Of a stretch of DNA of 64,000 bases, positions 1-64,000 are shown one piece after another. Each line of letters begins with the position of its first letter. Position 1 is the first letter of the stretch. Below the pieces are notes generated by a model, which saw nothing but the letters and a program-made list of their open reading frames with translations, made no database searches and was not told where the DNA came from. Position numbers and translations under genes: made by a program. The stretch is taken from positions 53,820,158-53,884,157 of the forward strand of contig OY979716.1 in assembly GCA_963855995.1 (NCBI GenBank), given 5' to 3'. Source of the stretch: Muricea muricata (taxonomy: Eukaryota; Cnidaria; Anthozoa; Malacalcyonacea; Plexauridae).

Positions 1-65
1 GGCCTAATGGATAAGGTGTCTGACTTTGGGTCAGAAGATTGAAAGTTCAAATCCATTCGGGGTCG
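1..65 (+). tRNA. tRNA-Arg family, partial, anticodon TTG
   Basis: The window starts at tRNA position 9, so the 5-prime acceptor strand is outside. Anticodon arm TCTGA-CTTTGGG-TCAGA puts TTG at 34-36. The T stem GAAAG/CCATT is poorly paired. Confidence 0.6.
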
Positions 66-330
66 CAATCTTTTCTGCATGTTGTTAAACTATGCAATTG
101 TGGCATAAAAAGTGGAATTTTTTTCTCTCAATTTTGATATGCCTCTTCCAAATTACTATTTGACAAAAAACTGTTAATGTACTACTGTTGCTGTGCTAGG
201 CGAACATGCAAGGCGAGGGTTACTGAATCTCTAGCAACTGCCATGCAACAAGTTTACACATCCCGCACAACAACTTAAATGAAACACCATGGCACATCTA
301 ATCGCTGATGGCCGATAAATAAAAAAAAAC

Positions 331-411
331 TAGCAGCGGTGGGATTCAAACCCACGCCATAGAATGACTGGTGCCTAAAACCAGCGCCTTAGACCACTCA
401 GCCACGCTACC
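331..411 (-). tRNA. tRNA-Leu, anticodon TAG, altered T loop
   Basis: Acceptor ends CGCTGCT (G-U at 1-72). T loop TTTGAAT has lost C56, a B-box and tertiary-contact base. A T9 run follows. Confidence 0.8.
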
Positions 412-647
412 ACCTTCGTCTCAATGGTGTTTCTTTTTGCTTTACACGCCCTAATTATATATTTAGTAAGGCAATCTCTCTCGCTTTCAGGTATTATTTA
501 CGGGATTCCTAACATTTTGTACGACAGAAGTAAAATTTAAAAAAGTAATATTTTCAACTACCTATTTCGAAGAAAGTTTTTCACAACATATAATATAAAA
601 ATAGACCTGGTTTCCAAAGTTAGTAATGTTACGAGTCCCGAAATAAT

Positions 648-719
648 GGGCTTGCACGGGAATCGAACCCGTGACCTCTCGCACCCGAAGCGAGAATCAT
701 TCCTCTAGACCAGGAAGCC
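648..719 (-). tRNA. tRNA-Pro, anticodon CGG
   Basis: 72-nt cloverleaf matching animal tRNA-Pro: D arm TGGTCTAGAGG, anticodon arm CTCGC-TTCGGGT-GCGAG (reads CCG), T arm ACGGG-TTCGATT-CCCGT, discriminator C. Acceptor GGCTTCC/GCAAGCC has one C-C clash at 6-67. B box GGTTCGATTCC is perfect and the A box good. The first T-run downstream is about 46 nt away, so a long 3-prime trailer is expected. Confidence 0.9.
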
Positions 720-1074
720 GAGAACAATCCGATCAACATCCAACATTTTTTTAAGAAAGTATTTGAAAAATAATAACAACGTAATACCATCGGCAACTGT
801 GATCGAGGTCAGTAAATTTATTGTGTTCTGCACCAGAGATGGACTGGTGGTTCAAGACCCACTTCCAGATTCTTTTTCAGTCACTATTTGCGCTGTTTGT
901 AATATTTCGTGTAGGACAGGAATTAAATTTTTAAAGCAATACTTTTAATGGGGCTTATCGGGAGAAAGTGTGTCAGCACATACAACATTAAAATAAATTA
1001 TATGCAATCGTCACAAACGTTTCCAACCTTATCAATCACTCAAAAAAGTTCTTTTTCTGCAGTTTTTTAATTAT

Positions 1075-1146
1075 GGGCTTGCACACGGATCGAACTTGTG
1101 ACCACTCGCACCTTAAAAGAGGAGCACATTACTAAACAAGTAAGCC
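1075..1146 (-). pseudogene. psi-Pro: decayed tRNA-Pro relative, AAG in anticodon place
   Basis: Exactly 72 nt, and aligns to tRNA-Pro without gaps at 52 of 72 positions; the 3-prime half is closest. Acceptor GGCTTAC/GCAAGCC keeps 6 of 7 pairs. T arm ACAAG-TTCGATC-CGTGT keeps 4 of 5, with B box AGTTCGATCCG. Anticodon arm CTCTT-TTAAGGT-GCGAG puts AAG (reads CUU, Leu) where Pro has CGG. The D arm (TTGTTTAGTAATG) lacks GG at 18-19, which argues against a working tRNA. Flanks are also Pro-derived (half-repeat B). Confidence 0.7.
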
Positions 1147-1269
1147 AGGAATTATTAAAGGATATCTAACAATTTGTCACAAAAATAAGAGGAAAATAAT
1201 CAAAAAAGTATCACCATTATCATTCGTGATCGTGGTTAGTAAATTTAGTTTTGGTTGTGGCTTGAAGAG

Positions 1270-1342
1270 GACCTCGTGGCGTAATGGATAAGGTGTCTGA
1301 CTTTGGATCAGAAGATTGAAAGTTCAAATCCATTCGGGGTCG
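1270..1342 (+). tRNA. tRNA-Arg body with Gln anticodon TTG
   Basis: A 73-nt cloverleaf whose body matches animal tRNA-Arg(TCG): D arm with GG at 18-19, anticodon arm TCTGA-loop-TCAGA, and G discriminator. The acceptor GACCTCG/CGGGGTC pairs at all seven positions, the best in the array. The loop CTTTGGA gives TTG, which reads CAA (Gln) rather than an Arg codon. ArgRS of most organisms depends on C35, which is lost, so it should be mis- or uncharged as Arg. The T stem GAAAG/CCATT has two mismatches, so it may be a pseudogene. B box AGTTCAAATCC; T4 stop at 1348. Confidence 0.7.
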
Positions 1343-1606
1343 CAATCTTTTCTGCATGTTGTTAAACTATGCAATTGTGGCATAAAAAGTGGAATTTTTT
1401 TTTCTCAATTTTGATATGCCTCTTCCAAATTACTATTTGACAAAAAACTGTTAATGTACTACTGTTGCTGTGCCAGGCGAACATGCAAGGCGAGGGTACT
1501 GAATCTCTAGCAACTGCCATGCAACAAGTTTCCACATCCCACACAACAACTTCAATGAAACAGCATGGCACATCTAACAGCTGATGGCCGATAAATAAAG
1601 CAAAAC

Positions 1607-1686
1607 TGCAATGGTGGGATTCGAACCCATGCCATAGAATGACTGGTGCCTAAAACCAGCGCCATAGACCACTCGGCCTTGCTACC
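1607..1686 (-). pseudogene. tRNA-Leu (TAG) with broken acceptor
   Basis: Anticodon arm and T loop are intact, but the 3-prime acceptor strand is changed and one base short (CATTGC), leaving few pairs with GGTAGCA. Confidence 0.7.
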
Positions 1687-1922
1687 AGTTTCATCTCGAT
1701 GGTGTTTCTTTTTGCTTTACACGCCCTAATTATATATTTAGTATGGCAATCTCTCTCGCTTTCAGGTATTATTTACGGGATTCCTAAGATTTTGCAGGAC
1801 AGAAGTAAAATTTAAAAAAGTAATATTTTCAAATACCTATTTCGAAGAAAGTTTTTCAGAATATATAACATAAAAATAGACCTGGTTTCCAAAGTTAGTA
1901 ATGTTACGAGTCCCGGAGTTAT

Positions 1923-1994
1923 GGGTTTGCACGGGAATCGAACCCGTGACCTCTCGCACCCGAAGCGAGAATCATACCTCTAGACCAGGAAGCC
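1923..1994 (-). tRNA. tRNA-Pro, anticodon CGG
   Basis: Acceptor GGCTTCC/GCAAACC has mismatches C3-A70 and C6-C67. Other arms intact. Confidence 0.85.
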
Positions 1995-2349
1995 GAGAAC
2001 AATCCGATCAACATCCAACATTTTTTTAAGAAAGTATTTGAAAAATAATAACAACGTAATACCATCGGCAACTGTAATCGAGGTCAGTAAATTTATTGTG
2101 TTCTGCACCACAGATGAACTGGTGGTTCCAGACCCACTTCCAGATTCTTTTTCAGTCACTATTTGCGCTGTTTGTAATATTTCGTGTAGGACAGAAATTA
2201 AATTTTTAAAGCAATACTTTTAATGGGGCTTATCGGGAGAAAGTGTGTCAGCACATACAACATTAAAATAAATGATATGAAATCGTCACAAACGTTTCCA
2301 AGCTTATCAATCACTCAAAAAAGTTCTTTTTCTGCAGTTTTTTATTTAT

Positions 2350-2421
2350 GGGCTTGCACACGGATCGAACTTGTGACCACTCGCACCTTAAAAGAGGAGC
2401 ACATTACTAAACAAGTAAGCC
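2350..2421 (-). pseudogene. psi-Pro, AAG
   Basis: Same form as 1075 (CACACGG T-stem type). Confidence 0.65.
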
Positions 2422-2544
2422 AGGAATTATTAAAGGATATCTAACAATTTGTCACAAAAATAAGAGGAAAATAATCAAAAAAGTATCACCATTATCATTC
2501 GTGATCGTGGTTAGTAAATTTAGTTTTGGTTGTGGCTTGAAGAC

Positions 2545-2617
2545 GGCCTCGTGGCCCAATGGGTAAGGTGTCTGACTTTGGATCAGAAGATTGAAAGTTC
2601 AAATCCATTCGGGGTCG
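2545..2617 (+). tRNA. tRNA-Arg body with Gln anticodon TTG
   Basis: A box TGGCCCAATGGG. Weak T stem GAAAG/CCATT as at 1270. Confidence 0.65.
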
Positions 2618-2881
2618 CAATCTTTTCTGCATGTTGTTAAACTATGCAATTGTGGCATAAAAAGTGGAATTTTTTTTTCTCAATTTTGATATGCCTCTTC
2701 CAAATTACTATTTGACAAAAAACTGTTAATGTACTACTGTTGCTGTGCCAGGCGAACATGCAAGGCGAGGGTACTGAATCTCTAGCAACTGCCATGCAAC
2801 AAGTTTCCACATCCCACACAACAACTTCAATGAAACAGCATGGCACATCTAACAGCTGATGGCCGATAAATAAAGCAAAAC

Positions 2882-2961
2882 TGCAATGGTGGGATTCGAA
2901 CCCATGCCATAGAATGACTGGTGCCTAAAACCAGCGCCATAGACCACTCGGCCTTGCTACC
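2882..2961 (-). pseudogene. tRNA-Leu (TAG) with broken acceptor
   Basis: Identical to 1607. Confidence 0.7.
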
Positions 2962-3197
2962 AGTTTCATCTCGATGGTGTTTCTTTTTGCTTTACACGCC
3001 CTAATTATATATTTAGTATGGCAATCTCTCTCGCTTTCAGGTATTATTTACGGGATTCCTAAGATTTTGCAGGACAGAAGTAAAATTTAAAAAAGTAATA
3101 TTTTCAAATACCTATTTCGAAGAAAGTTTTTCAGAATATATAACATAAAAATAGACCTGGTTTCCAAAGTTAGTAATGTTACGAGTCCCGGAGTTAT

Positions 3198-3269
3198 GGG
3201 TTTGCACGGGAATCGAACCCGTGACCTCTCGCACCCGAAGCGAGAATCATACCTCTAGACCAGGAAGCC
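3198..3269 (-). tRNA. tRNA-Pro, anticodon CGG
   Basis: Identical to 1923. Confidence 0.85.
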
Positions 3270-3624
3270 GAGAACAATCCGATCAACATCCAACATTTTT
3301 TTAAGAAAGTATTTGAAAAATAATAACAACGTAATACCATCGGCAACTGTAATCGAGGTCAGTAAATTTATTGTGTTCTGCACCACAGATGAACTGGTGG
3401 TTCCAGACCCACTTCCAGATTCTTTTTCAGTCACTATTTGCGCTGTTTGTAATATTTCGTGTAGGACAGAAATTAAATTTTTAAAGCAATACTTTTAATG
3501 GGGCTTATCGGGAGAAAGTGTGTCAGCACATACAACATTAAAATAAATGATATGAAATCGTCACAAACGTTTCCAAGCTTATCAATCACTCAAAAAAGTT
3601 CTTTTTCTGCAGTTTTTTATTTAT

Positions 3625-3696
3625 GGGCTTGCACACGGATCGAACTTGTGACCACTCGCACCTTAAAAGAGGAGCACATTACTAAACAAGTAAGCC
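3625..3696 (-). pseudogene. psi-Pro, AAG
   Basis: Same as 2350. Confidence 0.65.
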
Positions 3697-3819
3697 AGGA
3701 ATTATTAAAGGATATCTAACAATTTGTCACAAAAATAAGAGGAAAATAATCAAAAAAGTATCACCATTATCATTCGTGATCGTGGTTAGTAAATTTAGTT
3801 TTGGTTGTGGCTTGAAGAC

Positions 3820-7219: not shown

Positions 7220-7454
7220 CACAGTATAGGGTATAAACAGTAGGGCCACTCAGCAGTACAACATGTCCCCCTATTTTTATGCACTTATCTGGCCAGAATA
7301 ATGGCGGAACGGCCAGTTCAGCGTTCCTATTGGCCAGAAAAGGCAATTGACTGGCCAGAACCAGCATAATGAACATGCGTAATGAGACATGCGTGGAGAC
7401 ACAAACTTCAAAGGTTCCGACTCGAGTGGCCTTTCTGTTAATTTCTATTCTGTG
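7220..7454. mobile_element. Short non-autonomous DNA element (MITE-like), 235 bp
   Basis: Interrupts the Pro to psi-Pro spacer. ACCAGAG flanks it on both sides (7213-7219 and 7455-7461), a 7-bp target duplication. The ends form an inverted repeat starting CACAG and reaching GGCCACTC, about 24 of 32 columns identical with one gap. Inside, TGGCCAGAA recurs at 7290, 7331 and 7352, with a GGCCAG variant near 7311. There is no coding capacity. The target-site length and ends do not let me name a superfamily. Confidence 0.8.
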
Positions 7455-11711: not shown

Positions 11712-11945
11712 CACAGTATAGGGTATAAACAGTAGGGCCACTCAGCAGTACAACATGACCCCTATTTTTATGCACTTATCTGGCCAGAATAATGGCGGAA
11801 CGGCCAGTTCAGCGTTCCTAATGGCCAGAAAAGGCAATTGACTGGCCAGAACCAGCATAATGAACATGCGTAATGAGACATGCGTGGAGACACAAACTTC
11901 AAAGGTTCCGACTCGAGTGGCCTTTCTGTTAATTTCTATTCTGTG
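11712..11945. mobile_element. Second copy of the 235-bp MITE-like element
   Basis: Same insertion point and ACCAGAG duplication (11705-11711 and 11946-11952) as 7220-7454, 1 bp shorter. It was carried here by the 4,491-bp segmental duplication, not inserted independently. Confidence 0.8.
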
Positions 11946-26832: not shown

Positions 26833-26905
26833 GGCCTCGTCCCCTAATGGATAAGGTGTCTGAATCCGGATCAGAAAATTGAAGGTTCAAATCCTGTCGG
26901 GGTTG
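26833..26905 (+). tRNA. tRNA-Arg, anticodon CCG
   Basis: Loop ATCCGGA gives CCG, still Arg (reads CGG). TCGTCCCC replaces TCGTGGCC, so G10 is lost and one D-stem pair breaks. The only CCG copy of this family. Confidence 0.7.
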
Positions 26906-27169
26906 CAATATTTTCTGCATGTTGTTAAACTGTGCAATTGTGGCATAAAAAGTGGAATTTTTTTCTCGGAATTTTGATATGCCTCTTCCAAATTACTATT
27001 TGACAAAAAACTGTTCATGCACTATTGTTGCTGTACCAAGCGAACATGCAACGCAAGGGTTACTGAATCTCTAGAACTGCCATGCAACAAGTTTCCATAT
27101 CCTACACAAAAACTTCAATGAAACAGCATGGCACATCTAACAACTGATGGCCGATAAATAAAACGAAAC

Positions 27170-27250
27170 TGGCAGCGGTGGGATTCGAACCCACGCCATA
27201 GAATGACTCGTGCCTAAAACCAGCGCCTTAGACCACTCGGCCACACTACC
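27170..27250 (-). tRNA. tRNA-Leu, anticodon TAG
   Basis: Anticodon stem CTGGT/ACGAG has one mismatch. Confidence 0.83.
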
Positions 27251-27486
27251 ACCTTCATCTCGATGGTGTTTCTTTTTGCTTTACACGCCCTAGTTATATA
27301 TTTAGTATGGAAATCTCTCTTTCTTTCAGGTATTATTTACGGGATTCCTAACATTTTCCACGACAGAAGTAAAATTTAAAAAAGTAATATTTTCAAATCT
27401 TTATTTCGGAGAAAGTTTTTCAGAATATATAATATAAAAATAGACCTGGTTTCCAAAGTTAGTAATGTTACGAGTCCTGGAATCAT

Positions 27487-27558
27487 GGGCTTGCACGGGA
27501 ATCGAACCCGTGACCTCTCGCTCCCAAAGCGAGAATCATACCTCTACACCAGCAATCC
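27487..27558 (-). tRNA. tRNA-Pro, anticodon TGG
   Basis: Loop TTTGGGA reads CCA. Acceptor GGATTGC/GCAAGCC has one mismatch (A3-G70). The only full-length TGG copy. Followed at once by the rearrangement joint near 27597. Confidence 0.85.
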
Positions 27559-27687
27559 GAGAACAATCCAATAACATCCAACATTATTTGTTAAAGTGCC
27601 ATGCAACAAGTTTCCACATCCCACACAACAACTTCAATGAAACAGCATGGCACATCTAACACTGATGGCCGATAAATAAAATGAAAC

Positions 27688-27768
27688 TGGCAGCGGTGGG
27701 ATTCGAACCCACGCCATAGAATGACTGGTGCCTAAAACCAGCGCCTTAGACCACTCAACCACGCTACC
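27688..27768 (-). tRNA. tRNA-Leu, anticodon TAG (extra copy)
   Basis: Belongs to the rearranged short unit that lacks Arg and psi-Pro. D arm GGTTGAGTGG. Confidence 0.9.
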
Positions 27769-28004
27769 ACCTTCATCTCAATGGTGTTTCTTTTTGCTTT
27801 ACACGCCCTAATTATATATTTAGTATGGCAATCTCTCTCGCTTTCAGGTATTATTTACGGGATTCCTACCATTTTGTACGACATAAGTAAAATTCAAAAA
27901 AGTAATATTTTCAAATACCTATTTCGGAGAAAGTTTTTCAGAATATATAACATAAAAATAGACCTATTTTCCAAAGTTAGTAATGTTACGAATCCCGGAA
28001 TTAT

Positions 28005-28076
28005 GGGTTTGCACGGGAATCGAACCCGTGACCTCTCGCACCCGAAGCGAGAATCTTACCTCTAGACCAGGAAACC
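28005..28076 (-). tRNA. tRNA-Pro, anticodon CGG
   Basis: Acceptor GGTTTCC/GCAAACC: position 3 is T, which restores pairing with A70. Confidence 0.87.
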
Positions 28077-28431
28077 GAGAACAATCCCACCAACATCCAA
28101 CATTTTTTTAAGAAAGGATTTGAAAAACAATAACAAGGTAATACCATCGGCAACTGTGATCGAGGTCAGTAAATTTATTGTGTTCTGCACCAGAGATGAA
28201 CTGGTGGTTCCAGACCCACTTCCAGATTCTTTTTCAGTCACTATTTGCGCTGTTTGTAATATTTCGTGTAGGACAGAAATTAAATTTTTAAAGCAATACT
28301 TTTAATGGGGCTTCTCGGGAGAAAGTGTGTCAGAACATAAAACATTAAAATAAATGATAAGCAATTGTCACAAACGTTTCCAAGCTTATCAATCACTCAA
28401 GAAAGTTCTTTTTGTGCAGTTTTTTAACTAT

Positions 28432-28503
28432 GGGCTTGCACGCGGATCGAACTTGTGACCACTCGCACCTTAAAAGAGGAGCACATTACTAAACAAGTAA
28501 GCC
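28432..28503 (-). pseudogene. psi-Pro, AAG
   Basis: As 15162. The preceding unit (27487) has no psi-Pro because of the rearrangement. Confidence 0.63.
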
Positions 28504-28626
28504 AGGAATTATTAAAGGATATCTGACAATTTGTCACAAAAATAAGAGGAAAATAATCCAAAAAGTATCACCATTATCATTCGTGATCGTGGTTCGTAAA
28601 TTTAGTTTTGGTTGTGGCCTGAAGAC

Positions 28627-29903: not shown

Positions 29904-29976
29904 GGCCTCGTGGCCTAATGGATAAGGTGTCTGACTTCGGATCAGAAAATTGAAGGTTCAAATCGTGTCGGGGTTG
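29904..29976 (+). tRNA. tRNA-Arg, anticodon TCG
   Basis: B box GGTTCAAATCG and T stem GAAGG/CGTGT are weakened. Confidence 0.75.
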
Positions 29977-30241
29977 ATATATTTTCTGCATGTTGTTAAA
30001 CTATGCAATTGTGGCATAAAAAGTGGAATTTTTTTCTCTGAATTTTGATATACCTCTTCCAAATTACTATTTGACAAAAAACTGTTAATGTACTACTGTT
30101 GCTGTGCCAGGCGAACATGCAACGCGAGGGTTACTGAATCTCTAGCAACTGCCATGCAACAAGTTTCCACATCCCACACAACAACTTCAATGAAACAGCA
30201 TGGCACATCTAACAGCTGATGGCCCATAAATAAAACGAAAC

Positions 30242-30322
30242 TGGCAGCGGTGGGATTCGAACCCACGCCATAGAATGACTGGTGCCTAAAACCAGCGCCT
30301 TAGACCACTCCGCCACGCTACC
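30242..30322 (-). tRNA. tRNA-Leu, anticodon TAG
   Basis: D arm GGCGGAGTGG; otherwise reference form. Confidence 0.9.
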
Positions 30323-30558
30323 ACCTTCATCCCCATGGTGTTTCTTTTTGCTTTAGACGCCCTAATTATATATTTAGTATGGTAATCTCTCTCGCTTTCA
30401 GGTATTATTTACGGGATTCCTAACATTTTGTACGACAGAAGTAAAATTTAAAAAAGTAATATTTCCAAATACCTATTTCAGAGAAAGTTTTTCAGAATAT
30501 ATAACATAAAAATAGACCTGGTTTCCAAAGTTAGTAATGTTACGAGTCCCAGAATTAT

Positions 30559-30630
30559 GGGTTTGCACGGGAATCGAACCCGTGACCTCTCGCACCCGAA
30601 GCGAGAATAATACCTGTAGACCAGCAAGCC
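30559..30630 (-). tRNA. tRNA-Pro, anticodon CGG
   Basis: Acceptor GGCTTGC/GCAAACC, single C3-A70 mismatch. D arm TGGTCTACAGG. Confidence 0.88.
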
Positions 30631-30860
30631 GAGAACAATCCCACCAACATCAAAATTTTTTTAAAAAAGGATTTGAAAAACAATAGCAAGGTAATACCAT
30701 CGGCAACTGTGATCGAGGTCAGTAAATTTATTGTGTTCTGCACCAGAGATGAACTGGTGGTTCCAGACCCACTTCCAGATTCTTTTTCAGTCACTACTTC
30801 CGCTGTTTGTAATCTTATCAATCACTCAAAAAAGTTCTTTTTCTTCAGTTTTTTAATTAT

Positions 30861-30932
30861 GGGCTTGCACGCGGATCAAACTTGTGACCACTCGCACCTT
30901 AAAAGAGGAGCACATTACTAAACAAGTAAGCC
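30861..30932 (-). pseudogene. psi-Pro, AAG, C56 lost
   Basis: CGGATCAAAC on +: T loop TTTGATC. Its left flank is shortened by an internal deletion joined near 30813. Confidence 0.6.
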
Positions 30933-31054
30933 AGGAATTATTACAGGATATCTAACAATTTGTCACAAAAATAAGAGGAAAAAAATTAAAAAAGTATCAC
31001 CATTATCATTCGTGATCGTCGTTAGTAATTTAGGTTTGGTTGTGGCCTGAAGAT

Positions 31055-31127
31055 GGCCTTGTGGCCAAATGGATAACGTGTCTGACTTTGGATCAGAAAA
31101 TTGAAGGCTCCAATCCTGTCGGGGTTG
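31055..31127 (+). tRNA. tRNA-Arg body with Gln anticodon TTG, degraded
   Basis: Acceptor GGCCTTG, D arm GATAACG (D-stem pair lost), T arm GGCTCCAATCC. The TTG anticodon reappears here, far from the 1-11 kb cluster. Confidence 0.6.
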
Positions 31128-31392
31128 CAATCTTTTCTGCATGTTGTTAAACTATGCAATTGTGGCATAAAAGTGGAATTTTTTTTCTCTCAATTTTGAT
31201 ATGCCTATTCCAAATTACTATTTGACAAAAAACTGTTAATGTACTACTGTTGCTGTCCCAGGCGAACATGCAAGGCGAGGGTTACTGAATCTCTAGCAAC
31301 TGCCATGCAACAAGTTTCCACATCCCGCACAACAACTTCAATGAAACAGCATGGCAATTCTAACAGCTGATGGCCCATAAATAAAACGAAAC

Positions 31393-31453
31393 TGGCAGCG
31401 GTGGGATTCGAACCCACGCCATAGAATGACTTAGACCACTCGGCCACGCTACC
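31393..31453 (-). pseudogene. tRNA-Leu lacking its anticodon arm
   Basis: 61 nt: a clean 20-bp deletion between GAATGACT and TAGACCAC removes the whole anticodon arm, with CT as possible microhomology. Acceptor, D and T arms are intact, so A and B boxes survive 20 bp closer together. Confidence 0.85.
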
Positions 31454-31689
31454 ACCTTCATCTCGATGGTGTTTCTTTTTGCTTTACACGCCCTAATTAT
31501 ATATTTAGTATGGTAATCTCTCTCGCTTTCAGGTATTATTTACGGGATTCCTAACATTTTGTGCGACAGAAGTAAAATTTAAAAAAGTAATATTTCCAAA
31601 TACCTATTTCGGAGAAAGTTTTTCAGAATATATAACATAAAAATAGACCTGGTTTCCAAAGTTAGTAATGTTACGAGTCCCAGAATTAT

Positions 31690-32188: not shown

Positions 32189-32311
32189 AGGAATTATTAA
32201 AGGATATCTGACAATTTGTCACAAAAATAAGAGGAAAATAATCCAAAAAGTATCACCATTATCATTCGTGATCGTGGTTCGTAAATTTAGTTTTGGTTGT
32301 GGCCTGAAGAC

Positions 32312-32384: not shown

Positions 32385-32648
32385 CATTATTTTCTGCATG
32401 TTGTTAAACTATGCAATTCCTGCAAAAAAAGTGGAATTTTTTCTCTTAATTTTGATATGCCTTTTCCAAATTATTATTTGACAAAAAACTGTTAGTGTAC
32501 TACTGTTGCTGTGCCAGGCGAACATGCAAGGCGAGGGTTACTGAATCTATAGCAACTGCCATGCAACAAGTTTCCACATCCCACACAACAACTTCAATGA
32601 AACAGCATGGCACATGTAACAGCTGATGGCCGATAAATAAAACGAAAC

Positions 32649-32729
32649 TGGCAGCGGTTGGATTCGAACCCACGCCATAGAATGACTGGTGCCTAAAACC
32701 AGCGCCTTAGACCACTCGGCCACGCTACC
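32649..32729 (-). tRNA. tRNA-Leu, anticodon TAG
   Basis: T stem GTGGG/CCAAC has one mismatch and B box ends TCCAAC. Confidence 0.82.
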
Positions 32730-32965
32730 ACGTTCATCTCGATGGTGTTTCTTTTTTCTTTACACGCCCTAATTATATATTTAGTATGGCAATCTCTCTC
32801 GCTTTCAGGTATTATTTACGGGATTCCTAACATTTTCTACGACAGAAGTAAAATTTAAAAAAGTAATATTTCCAAATAGCTATTTCGGAGAAAGTTTTTC
32901 AGAATATATAACATAAAAATAGACCTGGTTTCCAAAGTTAGTAATGTTACAAGTCTTGGAATTAT

Positions 32966-33037
32966 GGGTTTGCACGGGAGTCGAACCCGTGACCTCTCGC
33001 ACCCGAAGAGAGAATGATACCTCTAGACCAGCAAGCC
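32966..33037 (-). tRNA. tRNA-Pro, anticodon CGG
   Basis: T loop TTCGACT, anticodon stem CTCTC/GCGAG with one mismatch. Confidence 0.8.
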
Positions 33038-33392
33038 GAGAACAATCCCACCAACATCCAACATTTTTTTAAGAAAGGATTTGAAAAACAATAACAAGGT
33101 TATACCATCGGCAACTGTGATCGAGGTCAGTAAATTTATTGTGTTCTGCACCAGACATGAACTGGTGGTTCCAGACCCACTTCCAGATTCTTTTTCAGTC
33201 ACTATTTGCGCTGTTTGTAATATTTCGTGTAGGACAGAAATTAAATTTTTAAAGCAATACTTTTAATGGGGCTTCTCGGGAGAAAGTGCGTCAGAACATA
33301 AAACATTAAAATAAATGATATGCAATTGTCACAAACGTTTCCAAGCTTATCAATCACTCAAGAAAGTTCTTTTTGTGCAGTTTTTTAACTAT

Positions 33393-33464
33393 GGGCTTGC
33401 ACGCGGATCGAACTTGTGACCACTCGCACCTTAAAAGAGGAGCACATTACTAAACAAGTAAGCC
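33393..33464 (-). pseudogene. psi-Pro, AAG
   Basis: As 15162. Confidence 0.63.
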
Positions 33465-33587
33465 AGGAATTATTAAAGGATATCTGACAATTTGTCACAA
33501 AAATAAGAGGAAAATAATCCAAAAAGTATCACCATTATCATTCGTGATCGTGGTTCGTAAATTTAGTTTTGGTTGTGGCCTGAAGAC

Positions 33588-33660
33588 GGCCTCGTGGCCT
33601 AATGGATAAGGTGTCTGACTTCAGATCAGAAAATTGAAGGTTCAAATCCTGTCGGGGTTG
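33588..33660 (+). tRNA. tRNA-Arg body with TCA anticodon (reads UGA stop)
   Basis: Identical in layout to 32312 except that the loop is CTTCAGA: one G-to-A change turns TCG into TCA. Acceptor, D arm, anticodon stem, T arm, A and B boxes and T4 stop are intact. C35 and the body are kept, so ArgRS could still charge it, making it a candidate UGA suppressor inserting Arg. It lacks the long variable arm and 13-bp acceptor/T helix of tRNA-Sec. Could be an inert copy or a sequencing error, but it occurs twice. Confidence 0.8.
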
Positions 33661-33925
33661 CAATATTTTCTGCATGTTGTTAAACTATGCAATTGTGGCA
33701 TAAAAAGTGGAATTTTTTTCTCTGAATTTTGATATGCCTCTTCCAAATTACTATTTGACAAAAAACTGTTAATGTACTACTGTTGCTGTCCCAGGCGAAC
33801 ATGCAAGGCGAGGGTTACTGAATCTGTAGCAACTGCCATGCAACAAGTTTCCACATCCCGCACAACAACTTCAATGAAACAGCATGGCACATCTACCAGC
33901 TGATGGCCCATAAATAAAACGAAAC

Positions 33926-34006
33926 TGGCAGCGGTGGGATTCGAACCCACGCCATAGAATGACTGGTGCCTAAAACCAGCGCCTTAGACCACTCGGCCAC
34001 GCTACC
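33926..34006 (-). tRNA. tRNA-Leu, anticodon TAG
   Basis: Reference form. Confidence 0.93.
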
Positions 34007-34242
34007 AGCTTCATCTCGATGGTGTTTATTTTTGCTTTAGACGCCCTAATTATATATTTAGTATGGTAATCTCTCTCGCTTTCAGGTATTATTTACGGGA
34101 TTCCTAACATTTTTAACGACAGAAGTAAAATTTAAAAAAGTTATATTTCCAAATACCTATTTCGGAGAAAGTTTTTCAGAATATATAACATAAAAATAGA
34201 CCTGGTTTTCAAAGTTAGTAATGTTACGAGCCTCAGAATTAT

Positions 34243-34314
34243 GGGTTTGCACGGGAATCGAACCCGTGACCTCTCGCACCGGAAACGAGAATGATACCTC
34301 TAGACCAGCAAGCC
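34243..34314 (-). tRNA. tRNA-Pro body with Arg anticodon CCG
   Basis: 4,961-bp duplicate of 29282. Confidence 0.8.
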
Positions 34315-34669
34315 GAGAACAATCCCACCAACATCCAACATTTTTTTAAGAAAGGATTTGAAAAACAATAACAAGGTAATACCATCGGCAACTGTGATCG
34401 AGGTCAGTAAATTTATTGTGTTCTGCACCAGAGATGAACTGGTGGTTCCAGACCCTCTTCCAGATTCTTTTTCAGTCACTATTTGCGCTGTTTGTAATAT
34501 TTCGTGTAGGACAGAAATTAAATTTTTAAAGCAATACTTTTAATGGGGCTTCTCGGAAGAAAGTGTGTCAGAACATAAAACATAAAAATAAATGATATGC
34601 AATTGTCACAAACGTTTCCAAGCTTATCAATCACTCAAGAAAGTTCTTTTTGTGCAGTTTTTGAACTAT

Positions 34670-34741
34670 GGGCTTGCACGCGGATCGAACTTGTGACCAC
34701 TCGCACCTTAAAAGAGGAGCACATTACTAAACAAGTAAGCC
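34670..34741 (-). pseudogene. psi-Pro, AAG
   Basis: 4,961-bp duplicate of 29709. Confidence 0.63.
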
Positions 34742-34864
34742 AGGAATTATTAAAGGATATCTGACAATTTGTCACAAAAATAAGAGGAAAATAATCCAAA
34801 AAGTATCACCATTATCATTCGTGATCGTGGTTCATAAATTTAGTTTTGGTTGTGGCCTGAAGAC

Positions 34865-34937
34865 GGCCTCGTGGCCTAATGGATAAGGTGTCTGACTTCG
34901 GATCAGAAAATTGAAGGTTCAAATCGTGTCGGGGTTG
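34865..34937 (+). tRNA. tRNA-Arg, anticodon TCG
   Basis: 4,961-bp duplicate of 29904. Confidence 0.75.
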
Positions 34938-35202
34938 ATATATTTTCTGCATGTTGTTAAACTATGCAATTGTGGCATAAAAAGTGGAATTTTTTTCTCT
35001 GAATTTTGATATACCTCTTCCAAATTACTATTTGACAAAAAACTGTTAATGTACTACTGTTGCTGTGCCAGGCGAACATGCAACGCGAGGGTTACTGAAT
35101 CTCTAGCAACTGCCATGCAACAAGTTTCCACATCCCACACAACAACTTCAATGAAACAGCATGGCACATCTAACAGCTGATGGCCCATAAATAAAACGAA
35201 AC

Positions 35203-35283
35203 TGGCAGCGGTGGGATTCGAACCCACGCCATAGAATGACTGGTGCCTAAAACCAGCGCCTTAGACCACTCCGCCACGCTACC
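35203..35283 (-). tRNA. tRNA-Leu, anticodon TAG
   Basis: 4,961-bp duplicate of 30242. Confidence 0.9.
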
Positions 35284-35519
35284 ACCTTCATCCCCATGGT
35301 GTTTCTTTTTGCTTTAGACGCCCTAATTATATATTTAGTATGGTAATCTCTCTCGCTTTCAGGTATTATTTACGGGATTCCTAACATTTTGTACGACAGA
35401 AGTAAAATTTAAAAAAGTAATATTTCCAAATACCTATTTCAGAGAAAGTTTTTCAGAATATATAACATAAAAATAGACCTGGTTTCCAAAGTTAGTAATG
35501 TTACGAGTCCCAGAATTAT

Positions 35520-35591
35520 GGGTTTGCACGGGAATCGAACCCGTGACCTCTCGCACCCGAAGCGAGAATAATACCTGTAGACCAGCAAGCC
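35520..35591 (-). tRNA. tRNA-Pro, anticodon CGG
   Basis: 4,961-bp duplicate of 30559. Confidence 0.88.
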
Positions 35592-35821
35592 GAGAACAAT
35601 CCCACCAACATCAAAATTTTTTTAAAAAAGGATTTGAAAAACAATAGCAAGGTAATACCATCGGCAACTGTGATCGAGGTCAGTAAATTTATTGTGTTCT
35701 GCACCAGAGATGAACTGGTGGTTCCAGACCCACTTCCAGATTCTTTTTCAGTCACTACTTCCGCTGTTTGTAATCTTATCAATCACTCAAAAAAGTTCTT
35801 TTTCTTCAGTTTTTTAATTAT

Positions 35822-35893
35822 GGGCTTGCACGCGGATCAAACTTGTGACCACTCGCACCTTAAAAGAGGAGCACATTACTAAACAAGTAAGCC
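35822..35893 (-). pseudogene. psi-Pro, AAG, C56 lost
   Basis: 4,961-bp duplicate of 30861, including the shortened left flank (joint near 35774). Confidence 0.6.
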
Positions 35894-36015
35894 AGGAATT
35901 ATTACAGGATATCTAACAATTTGTCACAAAAATAAGAGGAAAAAAATTAAAAAAGTATCACCATTATCATTCGTGATCGTCGTTAGTAATTTAGGTTTGG
36001 TTGTGGCCTGAAGAT

Positions 36016-36088
36016 GGCCTTGTGGCCAAATGGATAACGTGTCTGACTTTGGATCAGAAAATTGAAGGCTCCAATCCTGTCGGGGTTG
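36016..36088 (+). tRNA. tRNA-Arg body with Gln anticodon TTG, degraded
   Basis: 4,961-bp duplicate of 31055. Confidence 0.6.
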
Positions 36089-36353
36089 CAATCTTTTCTG
36101 CATGTTGTTAAACTATGCAATTGTGGCATAAAAGTGGAATTTTTTTTCTCTCAATTTTGATATGCCTATTCCAAATTACTATTTGACAAAAAACTGTTAA
36201 TGTACTACTGTTGCTGTCCCAGGCGAACATGCAAGGCGAGGGTTACTGAATCTCTAGCAACTGCCATGCAACAAGTTTCCACATCCCGCACAACAACTTC
36301 AATGAAACAGCATGGCAATTCTAACAGCTGATGGCCCATAAATAAAACGAAAC

Positions 36354-36414
36354 TGGCAGCGGTGGGATTCGAACCCACGCCATAGAATGACTTAGACCAC
36401 TCGGCCACGCTACC
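36354..36414 (-). pseudogene. tRNA-Leu lacking its anticodon arm
   Basis: 4,961-bp duplicate of 31393. Confidence 0.85.
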
Positions 36415-36650
36415 ACCTTCATCTCGATGGTGTTTCTTTTTGCTTTACACGCCCTAATTATATATTTAGTATGGTAATCTCTCTCGCTTTCAGGTATTAT
36501 TTACGGGATTCCTAACATTTTGTGCGACAGAAGTAAAATTTAAAAAAGTAATATTTCCAAATACCTATTTCGGAGAAAGTTTTTCAGAATATATAACATA
36601 AAAATAGACCTGGTTTCCAAAGTTAGTAATGTTACGAGTCCCAGAATTAT

Positions 36651-36722
36651 GGGTTTGCATGGGAATCGAACCCGTGACCTCTCGCACCCGAAGCGGGAAT
36701 AATAACTGTAGACCAGCAAGCC
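36651..36722 (-). tRNA. tRNA-Pro, anticodon CGG, weakened
   Basis: 4,961-bp duplicate of 31690. Confidence 0.75.
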
Positions 36723-37077
36723 GAGAACAATCCCACCAACATCCACCATTTTTTTAAGAAAGGATTTGAAAAACAATAACAAGGTAATACCATTAGCAAC
36801 TGTGATCGAGGTCAGTAAATTTATTGTGTTCTGCACCAGAGATGAACTGGTGGTTCCAGACCCACTTCCAGATTCTTTTTCAGTCACTATTTGCGCTGTT
36901 TGTAATATTTCGTGTAGGACAGAAATTAAATTTTTAAAGCAATACTTTTAATGGGGCTTCTCGGGAGAAAGTGTGTCAGAACATACAACATTAAAATAAA
37001 TGATATGCAATCGTCACAAACGTTTCCAAGCTTATCAATCACTCAAAAAAGTTCTTTTTCTGCAGTTTTTTAATTAT

Positions 37078-37149
37078 GGGCTTGCACGTGGATCAAACTT
37101 GTGACCACTCGCACCTTAAAAGAGGAGCACATTACTAAACAAGTAAGCC
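37078..37149 (-). pseudogene. psi-Pro, AAG, C56 lost
   Basis: 4,961-bp duplicate of 32117. Confidence 0.6.
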
Positions 37150-37272
37150 AGGAATTATTAAAGGATATCTGACAATTTGTCACAAAAATAAGAGGAAAAT
37201 AATCCAAAAAGTATCACCATTATCATTCGTGATCGTGGTTCGTAAATTTAGTTTTGGTTGTGGCCTGAAGAC

Positions 37273-37345
37273 GGCCTCGTGGCCTAATGGATAAGGTGTC
37301 TGACTTCGGATCAGAAAATTGAAGGTTCAAATCCTGTCGGGGTTG
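37273..37345 (+). tRNA. tRNA-Arg, anticodon TCG
   Basis: 4,961-bp duplicate of 32312. Confidence 0.9.
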
Positions 37346-37609
37346 CATTATTTTCTGCATGTTGTTAAACTATGCAATTCCTGCAAAAAAAGTGGAATTT
37401 TTTCTCTTAATTTTGATATGCCTTTTCCAAATTATTATTTGACAAAAAACTGTTAGTGTACTACTGTTGCTGTGCCAGGCGAACATGCAAGGCGAGGGTT
37501 ACTGAATCTATAGCAACTGCCATGCAACAAGTTTCCACATCCCACACAACAACTTCAATGAAACAGCATGGCACATGTAACAGCTGATGGCCGATAAATA
37601 AAACGAAAC

Positions 37610-37690
37610 TGGCAGCGGTTGGATTCGAACCCACGCCATAGAATGACTGGTGCCTAAAACCAGCGCCTTAGACCACTCGGCCACGCTACC
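37610..37690 (-). tRNA. tRNA-Leu, anticodon TAG
   Basis: 4,961-bp duplicate of 32649. Confidence 0.82.
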
Positions 37691-37926
37691 ACGTTCATCT
37701 CGATGGTGTTTCTTTTTTCTTTACACGCCCTAATTATATATTTAGTATGGCAATCTCTCTCGCTTTCAGGTATTATTTACGGGATTCCTAACATTTTCTA
37801 CGACAGAAGTAAAATTTAAAAAAGTAATATTTCCAAATAGCTATTTCGGAGAAAGTTTTTCAGAATATATAACATAAAAATAGACCTGGTTTCCAAAGTT
37901 AGTAATGTTACAAGTCTTGGAATTAT

Positions 37927-37998
37927 GGGTTTGCACGGGAGTCGAACCCGTGACCTCTCGCACCCGAAGAGAGAATGATACCTCTAGACCAGCAAGCC
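37927..37998 (-). tRNA. tRNA-Pro, anticodon CGG
   Basis: 4,961-bp duplicate of 32966. Confidence 0.8.
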
Positions 37999-38353
37999 GA
38001 GAACAATCCCACCAACATCCAACATTTTTTTAAGAAAGGATTTGAAAAACAATAACAAGGTTATACCATCGGCAACTGTGATCGAGGTCAGTAAATTTAT
38101 TGTGTTCTGCACCAGACATGAACTGGTGGTTCCAGACCCACTTCCAGATTCTTTTTCAGTCACTATTTGCGCTGTTTGTAATATTTCGTGTAGGACAGAA
38201 ATTAAATTTTTAAAGCAATACTTTTAATGGGGCTTCTCGGGAGAAAGTGCGTCAGAACATAAAACATTAAAATAAATGATATGCAATTGTCACAAACGTT
38301 TCCAAGCTTATCAATCACTCAAGAAAGTTCTTTTTGTGCAGTTTTTTAACTAT

Positions 38354-38425
38354 GGGCTTGCACGCGGATCGAACTTGTGACCACTCGCACCTTAAAAGAG
38401 GAGCACATTACTAAACAAGTAAGCC
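38354..38425 (-). pseudogene. psi-Pro, AAG
   Basis: 4,961-bp duplicate of 33393. Confidence 0.63.
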
Positions 38426-38548
38426 AGGAATTATTAAAGGATATCTGACAATTTGTCACAAAAATAAGAGGAAAATAATCCAAAAAGTATCACCATTATC
38501 ATTCGTGATCGTGGTTCGTAAATTTAGTTTTGGTTGTGGCCTGAAGAC

Positions 38549-38621
38549 GGCCTCGTGGCCTAATGGATAAGGTGTCTGACTTCAGATCAGAAAATTGAAG
38601 GTTCAAATCCTGTCGGGGTTG
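38549..38621 (+). tRNA. tRNA-Arg body with TCA anticodon (reads UGA stop)
   Basis: 4,961-bp duplicate of 33588, same CTTCAGA loop. Confidence 0.8.
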
Positions 38622-38886
38622 CAATATTTTCTGCATGTTGTTAAACTATGCAATTGTGGCATAAAAAGTGGAATTTTTTTCTCTGAATTTTGATATGCCT
38701 CTTCCAAATTACTATTTGACAAAAAACTGTTAATGTACTACTGTTGCTGTCCCAGGCGAACATGCAAGGCGAGGGTTACTGAATCTGTAGCAACTGCCAT
38801 GCAACAAGTTTCCACATCCCGCACAACAACTTCAATGAAACAGCATGGCACATCTACCAGCTGATGGCCCATAAATAAAACGAAAC

Positions 38887-38967
38887 TGGCAGCGGTGGGA
38901 TTCGAACCCACGCCATAGAATGACTGGTGCCTAAAACCAGCGCCTTAGACCACTCGGCCACGCTACC
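38887..38967 (-). tRNA. tRNA-Leu, anticodon TAG
   Basis: 4,961-bp duplicate of 33926. Confidence 0.93.
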
Positions 38968-39203
38968 AGCTTCATCTCGATGGTGTTTATTTTTGCTTTA
39001 GACGCCCTAATTATATATTTAGTATGGTAATCTCTCTCGCTTTCAGGTATTATTTACGGGATTCCTAACATTTTTAACGACAGAAGTAAAATTTAAAAAA
39101 GTTATATTTCCAAATACCTATTTCGGAGAAAGTTTTTCAGAATATATAACATAAAAATAGACCTGGTTTTCAAAGTTAGTAATGTTACGAGCCTCAGAAT
39201 TAT

Positions 39204-39275
39204 GGGTTTGCACGGTAATCGAACCCGTGACCTCTCACACCCGAAGCGAGAATAATACCTGTAGACCAGCAAGCC
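39204..39275 (-). tRNA. tRNA-Pro, anticodon CGG
   Basis: T loop TTCGATT with TACCG: one T-stem mismatch. Anticodon stem CTCGC/GTGAG. Confidence 0.83.
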
Positions 39276-39630
39276 GAGAACAATCCCACAAACATCCAAC
39301 ATTTTTTTAAGAAAGGATTTGAAAAACAATAACAAAGTAATACCATCGGCAACTGTGATCGAGGTCAGTAAATTTATTGTGTTCTGCACCAGAGATGAAC
39401 TGGTGGTTCCAGACCCACTTCCAGATTCTTTTTCAGTCACTATTTGCGCTGTTTGTAATATTTCGTGTAGGACAGAAATTAAAATTTTAAAGCAATAGTT
39501 TTAATGGGGTTTCTCGGGAGAAAGTGTGTCAGAACATACAACATTAAAATAAATCATATGCAATCGTCACAAACGTTTCCAAGCTTATCAATCACTCAAG
39601 AAAGTTCTTATTGTGCAGTTTTTTAACTAT

Positions 39631-39702
39631 GGGCTTGCACGCGGATCGAACTTGTGACCACTCGCACCTTAAAAGAGGAGCACATTACTAAACAAGTAAG
39701 AT
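39631..39702 (-). pseudogene. psi-Pro, AAG, acceptor destroyed
   Basis: AAGATAGG replaces AAGCCAGG, so the first three acceptor bases no longer pair. Confidence 0.58.
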
Positions 39703-39825
39703 AGGAATTATTAAAGGATATCTAACAATTTGTCAATAAAATAAGAGGAAAATAATCCAAAAAGTATCACCATTATCATTCGTGATCGTGGTTCGTAAAT
39801 TTAGTTTTGGTTGTGGCCTGAAGAC

Positions 39826-43726: not shown

Positions 43727-43992
43727 CAATCTTTTCTGCATGTTGTTAAACTATGCAATTGTGGCATAAAAAGTGGAATTTTTTTTCTCTCAATTTTGAT
43801 ATGCCTATTCCAAATTACTATTTGACAAAAAACTGTTAATGTACTACTGTTGCTGTCCCAGGCGAACATGCAAGGCGAGGGTTACTGAATCTGTAGCAAC
43901 TGCCATGCAACAAGTTTTCACATCCCGCACAACAACTTCAATGAAACAGCATGGCACATCTAACAGCTGATGGCCCATAAATAAAACGAAAC

Positions 43993-44073
43993 TGGCAGCG
44001 GTGGGATTCGAACCCACGCCATAGAATGACTGGTGCCTAAAACCAGCGCCTTAGACCACTCGGCCACGCTACC
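43993..44073 (-). tRNA. tRNA-Leu, anticodon TAG
   Basis: Reference form. Confidence 0.95.
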
Positions 44074-44309
44074 ACCTTCATCTCGATGGTGTTTCTTTTT
44101 GCTTTAGACGCCCTAATTATATATTTAGTATGGTAATCTCTCTCGCTTTCAGGTATTATTTACGGGATTCCGAACATTTTGTACGACAGAAGTAAAATTT
44201 AAAAAAGTAATATTTCCAAATACCTATTTCGGAGAAAGTTTTTCAGAATATATAACATAAAAATAGACCTGGTTTCCAAGGTTATTAATGTTACGAGTCT
44301 CAGAATTAT

Positions 44310-62883: not shown

Positions 62884-62888
62884 CAATC

Positions 62889-62892
62889 TTTT
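62889..62892 (+). terminator. Pol III T4 stop after Arg (last unit shown)
   Basis: TTTT begins 6 nt after the Arg discriminator. It is kept in nearly every unit as CAATCTTTTC, CAATATTTTC or CATTATTTTC. Confidence 0.75.
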
Positions 62893-63056
62893 CTGCATGT
62901 TGTTAAACTATGCAATTGTGGCATAAAAAGTGGAATTTTTTTCTCTCAATTTTGATATGCCTATTCCAAATTACTATTTGACAAAAAACTGTTAATGTAC
63001 TACTGTTGCTGTCCCAGGCGAACATGCAAGGAGAGGGTTACTGAATCTGTAGCAAC

Positions 63057-63112
63057 TGCCATGCAACAAGTTTCCACATCCCGCACAACAACTTCAATGA
63101 AACAGCATGGCA
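63057..63112. other. Inverted repeat in Arg to Leu spacer (last unit shown)
   Basis: TGCCATGC at 63057-63064 pairs with GCATGGCA at 63105-63112, and inside these GTTTC pairs with GAAAC. It gives a 13-bp stem with a 5/1 internal loop and a 24-nt end loop. Present in nearly all units. One rearrangement joint (near 27597) lies at its left arm. Confidence 0.7.
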
Positions 63113-63138
63113 CATCTAACAGCTGATGGCCCATAAAT

Positions 63139-63142
63139 AAAA
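63139..63142 (-). terminator. Pol III T4 stop after Leu (last unit shown)
   Basis: AAAA on + reads TTTT on the Leu strand, 6 nt beyond the discriminator. Absent at the Leu copies of 14418, 15694, 18244, 20798, 23347 and 24621. Confidence 0.7.
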
Positions 63143-63148
63143 CGAAAC

Positions 63149-63229
63149 TGGCAGCGGTGGGATTCGAACCCATGCCATAGAATGACTGGTGCCTAAAACC
63201 AGCGCCTTAGACCACTTGGCCACGCTACC
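63149..63229 (-). tRNA. tRNA-Leu, anticodon TAG
   Basis: Same as 61872. Confidence 0.9.
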
Positions 63230-63414
63230 ACCTTCATCTCCATGGTGTTTCTTTTTGCTTTAGACGCCCTAATTATATATTTAGTATGGTAATCTCTCTC
63301 GCTTTCAGGTATTATTTACGGGATTCCTAACATTTTGTACGACAGAAGTAAAATTTAAAAAAGTAATATTTCCAAATACCTATTTCGGAGAAAGTTTTTC
63401 AGAATATATAACAT

Positions 63415-63419
63415 AAAAA
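63415..63419 (-). terminator. First T-run downstream of Pro (last unit shown)
   Basis: T5 on the minus strand, 46 nt beyond the Pro discriminator. Pro precursors would carry a long 3-prime trailer. Confidence 0.5.
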
Positions 63420-63465
63420 TAGACCTGGTTTCCAAAGTTAGCAATGTTACGAGTCCCAGAATTAT

Positions 63466-63537
63466 GGGTTTGCACGGGAATCGAACCCGTGACCTCTCGC
63501 ACCCGAAGCGAGAATAATACCTGTAGACCAGCAAGCC
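63466..63537 (-). tRNA. tRNA-Pro, anticodon CGG
   Basis: As 30559. Confidence 0.88.
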
Positions 63538-63648
63538 GAGAACAATCCCACCAACATCCAACATTTTTTTAAGAAAGGATTTGAAAAACAATAACAAGGT
63601 AATACCATCGGCAACTGTGATCGAGGTCAGTAAATTTATTGTGTTCTG

Positions 63649-63667
63649 CACCAGAGATGAACTGGTG
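63649..63667. other. Conserved 6-bp stem, 7-nt loop hairpin (last unit shown)
   Basis: CACCAG, loop AGATGAA, CTGGTG: anticodon-arm geometry in the Pro to psi-Pro spacer. On the minus strand the loop reads TTCATCT, with T at position 33 and CAT in the anticodon place. No convincing acceptor or D arm surrounds it. Confidence 0.5.
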
Positions 63668-63892
63668 GTTCCAGACCCACTTCCAGATTCTTTTTCAGTC
63701 ACTATTTGCGCTGTTTGTAATATTTCGTGTAGGACAGAAATTAAATTTTTAAAGCAATACTTTTAATGGGGCTTCTCGGGAGAAAGTGTGTCAGAACATA
63801 CAACATTAAAATAAATGATATGCAATCGTCACAAACGTTTCCAAGCTTATCAATCACTCAACAAAGTTCTTTTTCTGCAGTTTTTTAATTAT

Positions 63893-63964
63893 GGGCTTGC
63901 ACGCGGATCAAACTTGTGACCACTCGCACCTTAAAAGAGGAGCACATTACTAAACAACTAAGCC
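63893..63964 (-). pseudogene. psi-Pro, AAG, C56 lost
   Basis: As 43459, with CTAAGCC in the acceptor (one further change). Confidence 0.6.
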
Positions 63965-64000
63965 AGGAATTATTACAGGATATCTAACAAATTGTCACAA

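Follow-up and report, generated by a model that had tools for sequence, protein, structure and literature searches.

What maintains a tandem array built almost wholly of tRNA genes: a demand for tRNA, a role in chromatin, or the turnover of the array itself? The question is raised by a 64,000-nt stretch of DNA (the window; positions 53820158-53884157 of the (+) strand of C1, a 124-Mb contig in an assembly of 453 Mb and 74 contigs), numbered here 1..64000, which forms part of a larger array, A, whose repeated unit holds genes for tRNA-Arg, tRNA-Leu, and tRNA-Pro and the relic of a further Pro gene (psiPro). Our reading, to which we assign a probability of about 0.7, is that array A is a redundant, drifting gene-satellite homogenized by unequal exchange; it is drawn from sequence, and its implications for expression are predictions.

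Comparison with the unit's own genes revealed 49 slots for Arg, 48 for Leu, 54 for Pro, and 49 for psiPro in the window, arranged in a repeating Arg-Leu-Pro-psiPro order with a few local duplications or losses, Arg lying on the (+) strand and the other three on the (−) strand. These counts, together with head-to-tail units of ~1277 bp, confirm the ~50 tandem units of a preliminary description of this DNA. Its tally of roughly 150 tRNA genes or near-genes and 49 relics also agrees with the slot counts, with many slots being near-genes rather than genes. The same description saw nothing else between the units, which is correct for 63,505 of the 64,000 bases; the only uncovered stretches longer than 20 bases are two copies of one ~235-bp insert. 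Most units measure 1273–1278 bp, a few span 1151–1794 bp, and the G+C content of the 1.28-kb unit is ~39%. In the unit consensus, TTTT was read from the sequence closely 3′ of the Arg gene, and Tandem Repeats Finder (TRF) reported no short tandem repeats in the window. ARAGORN called 135 tRNAs, and Rfam RF00005 gave 142 matches above its gathering score, 56 of them (by hand count) reaching at least 50 bits. The Gln, Ser, and selenocysteine (SeC) calls of ARAGORN, as well as two Arg calls on the (−) strand, proved to be the three unit genes with altered anticodons: Arg bodies were taken for Gln or SeC, Pro bodies for Ser or Arg, and one Leu body for Gln. A tRNA-derived short interspersed element was rejected as an explanation, because it would require dispersed single insertions and the window is a head-to-tail array.

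The array extends far beyond the window. It is present in every one of the 19 stretches fetched from 53.637 to 54.228 Mb, only partly in three of them (L022 to L024), giving a span of ~591 kb and, by estimate, ~450 units, i.e., ~9 times the window, which amply bears out the "at least 64 kb" proposed before. On the right flank (54.232–54.260 Mb), six of eight 400-base probes were without unit-like sequence, and two (54.244 and 54.256) held diverged unit fragments. At the left edge, units are more diverged (85–91% identical to the consensus), and inserts of 4.7–4.8 kb split two of them; one of these inserts encodes an endonuclease and a reverse transcriptase, as in retrotransposons lacking long terminal repeats (non-LTR). 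When the 41 full units of the window are compared with one another, pairs without any difference turn up at each lag from 1 to 5. Mean divergence grows with lag, from 3.3% between adjacent units (lag 1) to ~5% between units more than 25 apart (mean pairwise divergence of 4.2% for 40 units; spacer nucleotide diversity [pi] of 0.040 in array A units). A block of 4961 bp stands twice in succession, and two of its three pairs of full-length units are identical while one pair is 2% apart (the shortened first units lie outside this comparison). The repeated block, the identical units at short lags, and the rise of divergence with distance are the pattern that unequal exchange with block duplication would produce. 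Array A is thus a long homogenized tandem array with higher-order repeats; given also its graded divergence and its diverged, insert-broken left edge, the name "tRNA-gene satellite" is a fair one.

A second array, B, lies 0.2 Mb from A at C1 ~53.09–53.42 Mb (~0.33 Mb); its ~1266-bp unit has the same gene order and orientation and is ~72% identical to that of A where alignable. Part of B has matching genes spaced 20,168 bp apart (53,270,612; 53,290,780; 53,310,948; and 53,331,116). At 53.27–53.33 Mb, identical Pro and Arg genes were seen at exactly this spacing, and a gene spacing of 12,308 bp was seen at 53.20–53.23 Mb. An intact Arg gene used as a query against the genome has at least 37 identical copies, 36 in B and one solitary (40 matches scored of 754 candidates); no identical intact Arg from A was present among those 40 scored matches. 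The solitary gene (C1:58.61 Mb) has the same sequence as the commonest B copy (100% identity), stands alone in 3 kb between unrelated flanks, is followed by a run of T, and has no similarity to the A or B unit beyond ~80 bp around the gene; the idea that intact Arg is confined to arrays was therefore rejected. The intact Pro gene has at least 31 identical copies, all in the region of B (40 scored matches). Separately, a 99% copy of it lies at C1:52587108-52587179, 0.5 Mb outside B.

To count a gene as intact, we required all stem pairs, no gap, and the B-box core. The A sample comprised 99 full units, eight of which were without a complete Arg stretch, leaving 91 Arg copies. By this rule, none of the 91 Arg copies, 28 of 99 Leu copies, and 13 of 99 Pro copies in A are intact; the Pro count was 14 before one copy with an insertion was excluded, as the reference-anchored alignment drops insertions and a recheck of A found this single affected gene copy. 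In the full-length units of the window, the figures are 0/39 for Arg, 14/41 for Leu, and 0/41 for Pro. In comparison, 14 of 24 Arg copies and 3 of 28 Pro copies are intact in B. The highest Rfam scores for Arg are 69.3 bits in B, 59.5 in the body of A, and 62.3 at the left edge of A, where all three Arg copies examined (stretch L024, outside the sample of 91) have one or two stem breaks, the 62.3-bit copy included. The B-box core is present in 94/99 Pro, 67/99 Leu, and 45/91 Arg copies of A, and a single intact Leu haplotype makes up 21 of the 99 Leu copies. A fixed T-loop deletion in the Leu genes of B proved to be an artefact of insertion columns lost in the reference-anchored alignment; for this reason, reciprocal loss between the two arrays is retained as an idea for Arg alone.

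Anticodons have shifted as well. Among gap-free sampled A copies, Arg bodies carry TCG (47), TTG (26), ACG (15), and TCA (2); Pro copies carry CGG (89), CGA (7), CCG (2), and TGA (1); and Leu copies carry TAG (81), TAA (2), and TTG (1). In Arg bodies, TTG derives from TCG by C-to-T change at the CpG, and it predominates in the left part of A. Arg bodies with this Gln anticodon account for 26 of the 90 gap-free sampled copies and, by extrapolation, number more than 100 in the whole array. The Arg bodies of A are also broken in their stems. Anticodon shifts are documented in flies (PMC7919458).

Variation within A gives no sign that the genes are shielded. Across the 99 units, 132 of 225 sites in the three genes are variable, compared with 335 of 820 in the core spacer and 22 of 72 in psiPro. 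The raw excess of the genes over core spacer (p = 2.4e-6) is also found outside CpG sites (80/158 versus 267/735; p = 0.0012) and, once sites are matched for base and CpG context, amounts to 132 variable sites against 116.4 expected (P = 0.012), being largest for Arg. We do not claim transcription-elevated mutation, as much of the excess is gone after this matching; in an array of Lys genes described below, the excess is absent (26 of 73 gene sites and 106 of 273 spacer sites variable in 19 units). Stem sites in A are not less variable than loops for Leu (0.82 versus 0.47 variants per site) or Pro (0.72 versus 0.66) and only slightly less so for Arg (0.74 versus 0.84). Since variation is not below the matched expectation, the genes of A are at present unprotected relative to spacer.

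The comparison of A with B gives a different picture. Majority sequences of the two arrays are 0.932 (Arg), 0.911 (Leu), and 0.944 (Pro) identical in the genes, versus 0.746 in psiPro and 0.776 in spacer (851 alignable of 980 sites). At a threshold of 0.9, the ratio of polymorphic to fixed differences is 132/9 for genes and 358/137 for spacer (odds ratio of 5.6; p = 1.3e-8), and the odds ratio ranges from 5.4 to 20 over six threshold choices, each with p < 3e-5. The simplest reading is that purifying selection acted on the three genes in the past, or acts at the level of the array, with little on individual copies now. Within B (30 pieces), there is constraint on Arg, with 10 variable sites where 25.9 are expected, and none on Leu (28 against 29.6) or Pro (29 against 26.5).

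As for psiPro, ~180 bp around it are ~68–70% identical to the region of the Pro gene, on which ground we regard it as an old internal duplicate of Pro. Rfam did not detect it as a tRNA in the two units tested, even at an E-value of 5, and it diverges between A and B like spacer. The commonest relic haplotype in A (28 of 99) has GTTTGATCC in place of GTTCGATCC and, judged by eye, falls off the box core. Beside psiPro, at unit positions 1141–1180, A/B identity reaches 0.85–0.90.

Arrays of other tRNAs occur in the same genome. A whole-genome tRNA search (55,957 candidates) placed 62 of 63 scored matches on C1 at 68.26–68.74 Mb and one on C12; two samples of the C1 region contained 21 genes at 346-bp spacing, 20 of them Lys(TTT) and the other bearing a TTA anticodon; Lys copies score up to 79 bits. 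A 1582-bp unit of initiator Met (iMet), Asn, and Ile genes occupies C1:55.60–55.72 Mb (all 40 scored iMet matches; 346 candidates). At C1:55.72 Mb, this unit also includes a relic resembling Pro (74.7% identity with the Pro gene) as well as a further, weak tRNA-like match (20–24 bits), read as Lys-like; with relics in this unit too, dead tRNA genes are not special to the window. All 40 scored Gly matches (564 candidates) lie at C2:51.79–52.36 Mb, where the one locus viewed also holds Lys, Glu, and Asp, and Phe matches lie at C11:8.75–8.96 and C2:55.44–55.61 Mb (40 of 40 scored; 922 candidates), with Ala adjoining Phe in the C11 locus viewed. The iMet, Gly, and Phe copies are 93–96% identical to generic animal query sequences. 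With Arg, Leu, and Pro, the tRNAs found in arrays or repeated units are thus Lys, iMet, Asn, Ile, Gly, Glu, Asp, Phe, and Ala.

These observations can be assembled into a history. A and B share a unit of four genes (Arg, Leu, Pro, and another Pro that is now dead), and purifying selection would have acted on the genes over much of the period after the arrays separated. Unequal crossing-over and gene conversion would then expand and homogenize A faster than selection purges damaged copies. The minority of intact A copies (mainly Leu, some Pro) would cover the need for tRNA together with B (Arg and Pro) and one or more solitary Arg genes, and because it is met in this way, damaged copies could persist. 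Array A would be mostly redundant DNA with a fringe of usable tRNA genes, and no dedicated factory. Of the roles considered in the preliminary description, tRNA supply by A can be at best partial, since none of the sampled Arg copies is intact there while intact Arg exists elsewhere; the fact that genes inside A vary much as spacer does agrees with a selfish or neutral satellite.

Several points weigh against this account. The DNA of array A that was read amounts to ~181 kb of ~591 kb, and copies that share a recent block duplication are non-independent even after identical units are removed. Some tRNAs function with one stem mismatch, so the strict rule may understate the number of usable copies; 14 of the 41 Leu copies in the window pass it regardless. 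The low A/B divergence of the genes could stem from conversion by other tRNA genes, and in B the three genes together show 67 variable sites against 82.2 expected (P = 0.016), essentially through Arg. The relic is also less variable than plain neutral decay predicts: psiPro in A has 22 variable sites against a matched expectation of 32.9 (P = 0.004), and its ratio of polymorphic to fixed differences lies below that of spacer at the strictest thresholds (odds ratio of 0.28 or 0.16; p = 0.004–0.005) and is never above it at any threshold. In B the deficit is weak (17 variable sites against 23.2; P = 0.065). The cause may be locally low mutation, or else a small conserved element that adjoins psiPro.

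Three other explanations deserve weighing against a drifting satellite. Array A might be a dosage array that supplies bulk tRNA in the manner of ribosomal DNA, with damaged copies tolerated and selection acting on the number of intact ones. The shared intact Leu haplotype, the strong A/B conservation of the genes, the TTTT after Arg, and the good copies in the Lys, iMet, Gly, and Phe arrays would all suit such a function, but we consider it unlikely in view of the complete lack of structurally intact Arg in the A sample, gene variation that is not below that of spacer, and the intact Arg genes elsewhere. That the value of A lies in chromatin, its dense sites for TFIIIC and RNA polymerase III (Pol III) forming an insulator or nuclear-organizing domain and the relic adding a further TFIIIC site, seems quite improbable to us: the frequent B-box cores of Pro and Leu, the low variation of psiPro in A, and precedents for tDNA barriers (PMC4041453) speak for it, but only about half of the Arg copies keep the core, the commonest relic haplotype departs from it, and psiPro is no more conserved between A and B than spacer.

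Inflation of a short array by the assembly can be given very little credence. Some units are identical, and there are runs of N nearby (2000 in stretch L019 and 68 in L029), but the units differ by 4.2% on average, 89 of the 99 full units are distinct, divergence is graded with distance, particular units carry inserts, and arrays of other tRNAs exist in the same genome. A redundant satellite remains our preferred account of array A.

Table 1. Positions of array A features within the window.
Feature	Position	Strand	Basis or remark
Array A segment	1..64000	+	~50 head-to-tail units, ~1277 bp each
Example unit, 1275 bp: Arg body (+), Leu (−), Pro (−), psiPro (−)	2545..3819	+	
tRNA-Arg body, Gln-type TTG anticodon (C to T at CpG of TCG)	2545..2618	+	ARAGORN
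tRNA-Leu(TAG)-like, damaged copy, 29.6 bits	2882..2957	−	Rfam
tRNA-Pro(CGG) copy, 43.9 bits	3198..3269	−	ARAGORN, Rfam
psiPro relic	3625..3696	−	Similarity to Pro gene region
235-bp non-unit insert	7220..7454		Starts CACAG, ends CTGTG
Second copy of 235-bp insert	11712..11945		98.7% identical
1794-bp unit with second Leu-Pro pair	26833..28626	+	
Two successive 4961-bp higher-order blocks	29904-34864, 34865-39825	+	
tRNA-Arg copy, ACG anticodon, 48.7 bits	43654..43727	+	ARAGORN, Rfam
tRNA-Leu(TAG), 60.6 bits, among top-scoring copies	43992..44074	−	ARAGORN, Rfam
tRNA-Pro(CGG), low-scoring, 37.5 bits	44310..44381	−	ARAGORN, Rfam

The 235-bp insert looks like a small DNA transposon and has apparently been multiplied by duplication of its host units; further copies were seen in stretch L001 (1338-1572 and 4553-4787). 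Near the left edge of the array, a ~4.7-kb element encoding endonuclease and reverse transcriptase (L022 264-4930; C1:53.650–53.655 Mb) interrupts one copy of the Pro gene within its 3′ end, the unit sequence breaking off at position 667 and resuming at 669; a short unit stretch is repeated beside the element, which is a possible case of tRNA-targeted insertion. A trinucleotide repeat of ~700 bases, judged from translated frames, lies near the right edge of the array region (C1:54.304 Mb).

The host is very likely an octocoral, going by the mitochondrial gene arrangement in the 9 kb read. Its mitochondrial genome is contig C74 (19,292 bp, with an intact COX1), whose first 9 kb carry nad6, cob, nad1, a gap, cox1, and part of nad4 on one strand (names from translations) and cox2-atp8-atp6-cox3 with tRNA-Met, the sole tRNA found by ARAGORN, on the other. 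The COX2/COX1 gap is 112 bp long, as it is in an octocoral mitogenome that has one tRNA (Met) and COX3, ATP6, ATP8, COX2, and tRNA-Met on its light strand (PMC9307108). A fungal or plant host, to which a COX1 frame open under translation table 11 had seemed to point, was rejected because of this gene arrangement. A diverged nuclear copy of cox1-cox2, with one stop reported in cox1, lies at C1:38414782-38416095; its presence indicates that C1 and C74 come from the same animal.

Tandem tRNA arrays are already known in cnidarians, and what is new here is the state of the genes. Hydractinia has tandem arrays for all 20 amino acids (PMC11067881) and resembles the present case in being a cnidarian with evenly spaced head-to-tail tRNA units in tens to hundreds of copies, highly similar spacers (here a mean unit divergence of 4.2%), and many amino acids arrayed in one genome; the host here is an octocoral, array A covers ~0.59 Mb, and the available text of PMC11067881 contains neither an Arg-Leu-Pro-psiPro unit nor a test of decay and selection. 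Nematostella, also an anthozoan, has tRNA arrays (PMC11067881, PMC2888827) and more than 17,000 tDNAs, 89% of them clustered and mostly with heterogeneous neighbors; it differs in being reported by cluster statistics, with no unit of the A type in the part of PMC2888827 at hand. The preliminary description did not recognize this set of tRNAs; the exact unit was indeed not found in those two sources, but the kind of array is published there. Entamoeba, a protist, likewise has array units with several tRNA genes, up to five per unit, with nearly all of its tRNA genes arrayed, but two of its species have short tandem repeats between the genes (PMC2652664), whereas TRF found none here and the unit has a fixed relic. 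The human tDNA variable-number tandem repeat at 1q23.3 is also a tandem tRNA-gene unit, but one that is 7.3 kb long, GC-rich, present in 9–43 copies, and CTCF-bound (PMC4041453), compared with 1.28 kb and ~39% GC here. The SYY cluster of Arabidopsis, a plant, consists of tandem genes for other tRNAs (Ser and Tyr), silent in most tissues and expressed in root cap cells (PMC12308677). No octocoral tRNA array was found in the literature, searched partly by octocoral name and with most subscription journals outside coverage.

These results extend tandem tRNA arrays to an octocoral. With most sampled A copies damaged, the array is a natural experiment on decay under continuing homogenization, and two paralogous arrays, an internal dead gene, and spacer serve as controls for gauging, within a single genome, the balance of concerted evolution, mutation, and selection on a housekeeping gene family. 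The results also caution that a gene finder's tRNA count (135 in these 64 kb) can lie far above the number of genes that plausibly work. More tentatively, most of the nuclear tRNA complement may reside in large gene satellites, such that selection acts on arrays and not on genes: paralogous arrays would differ in which genes of the shared unit they lose (intact Arg is gone from the sampled body of A and retained in B), dead genes would become fixed as relics, and, if this is true, anticodon-shifted copies would amount to a standing reserve that could give rise to new decoding genes.

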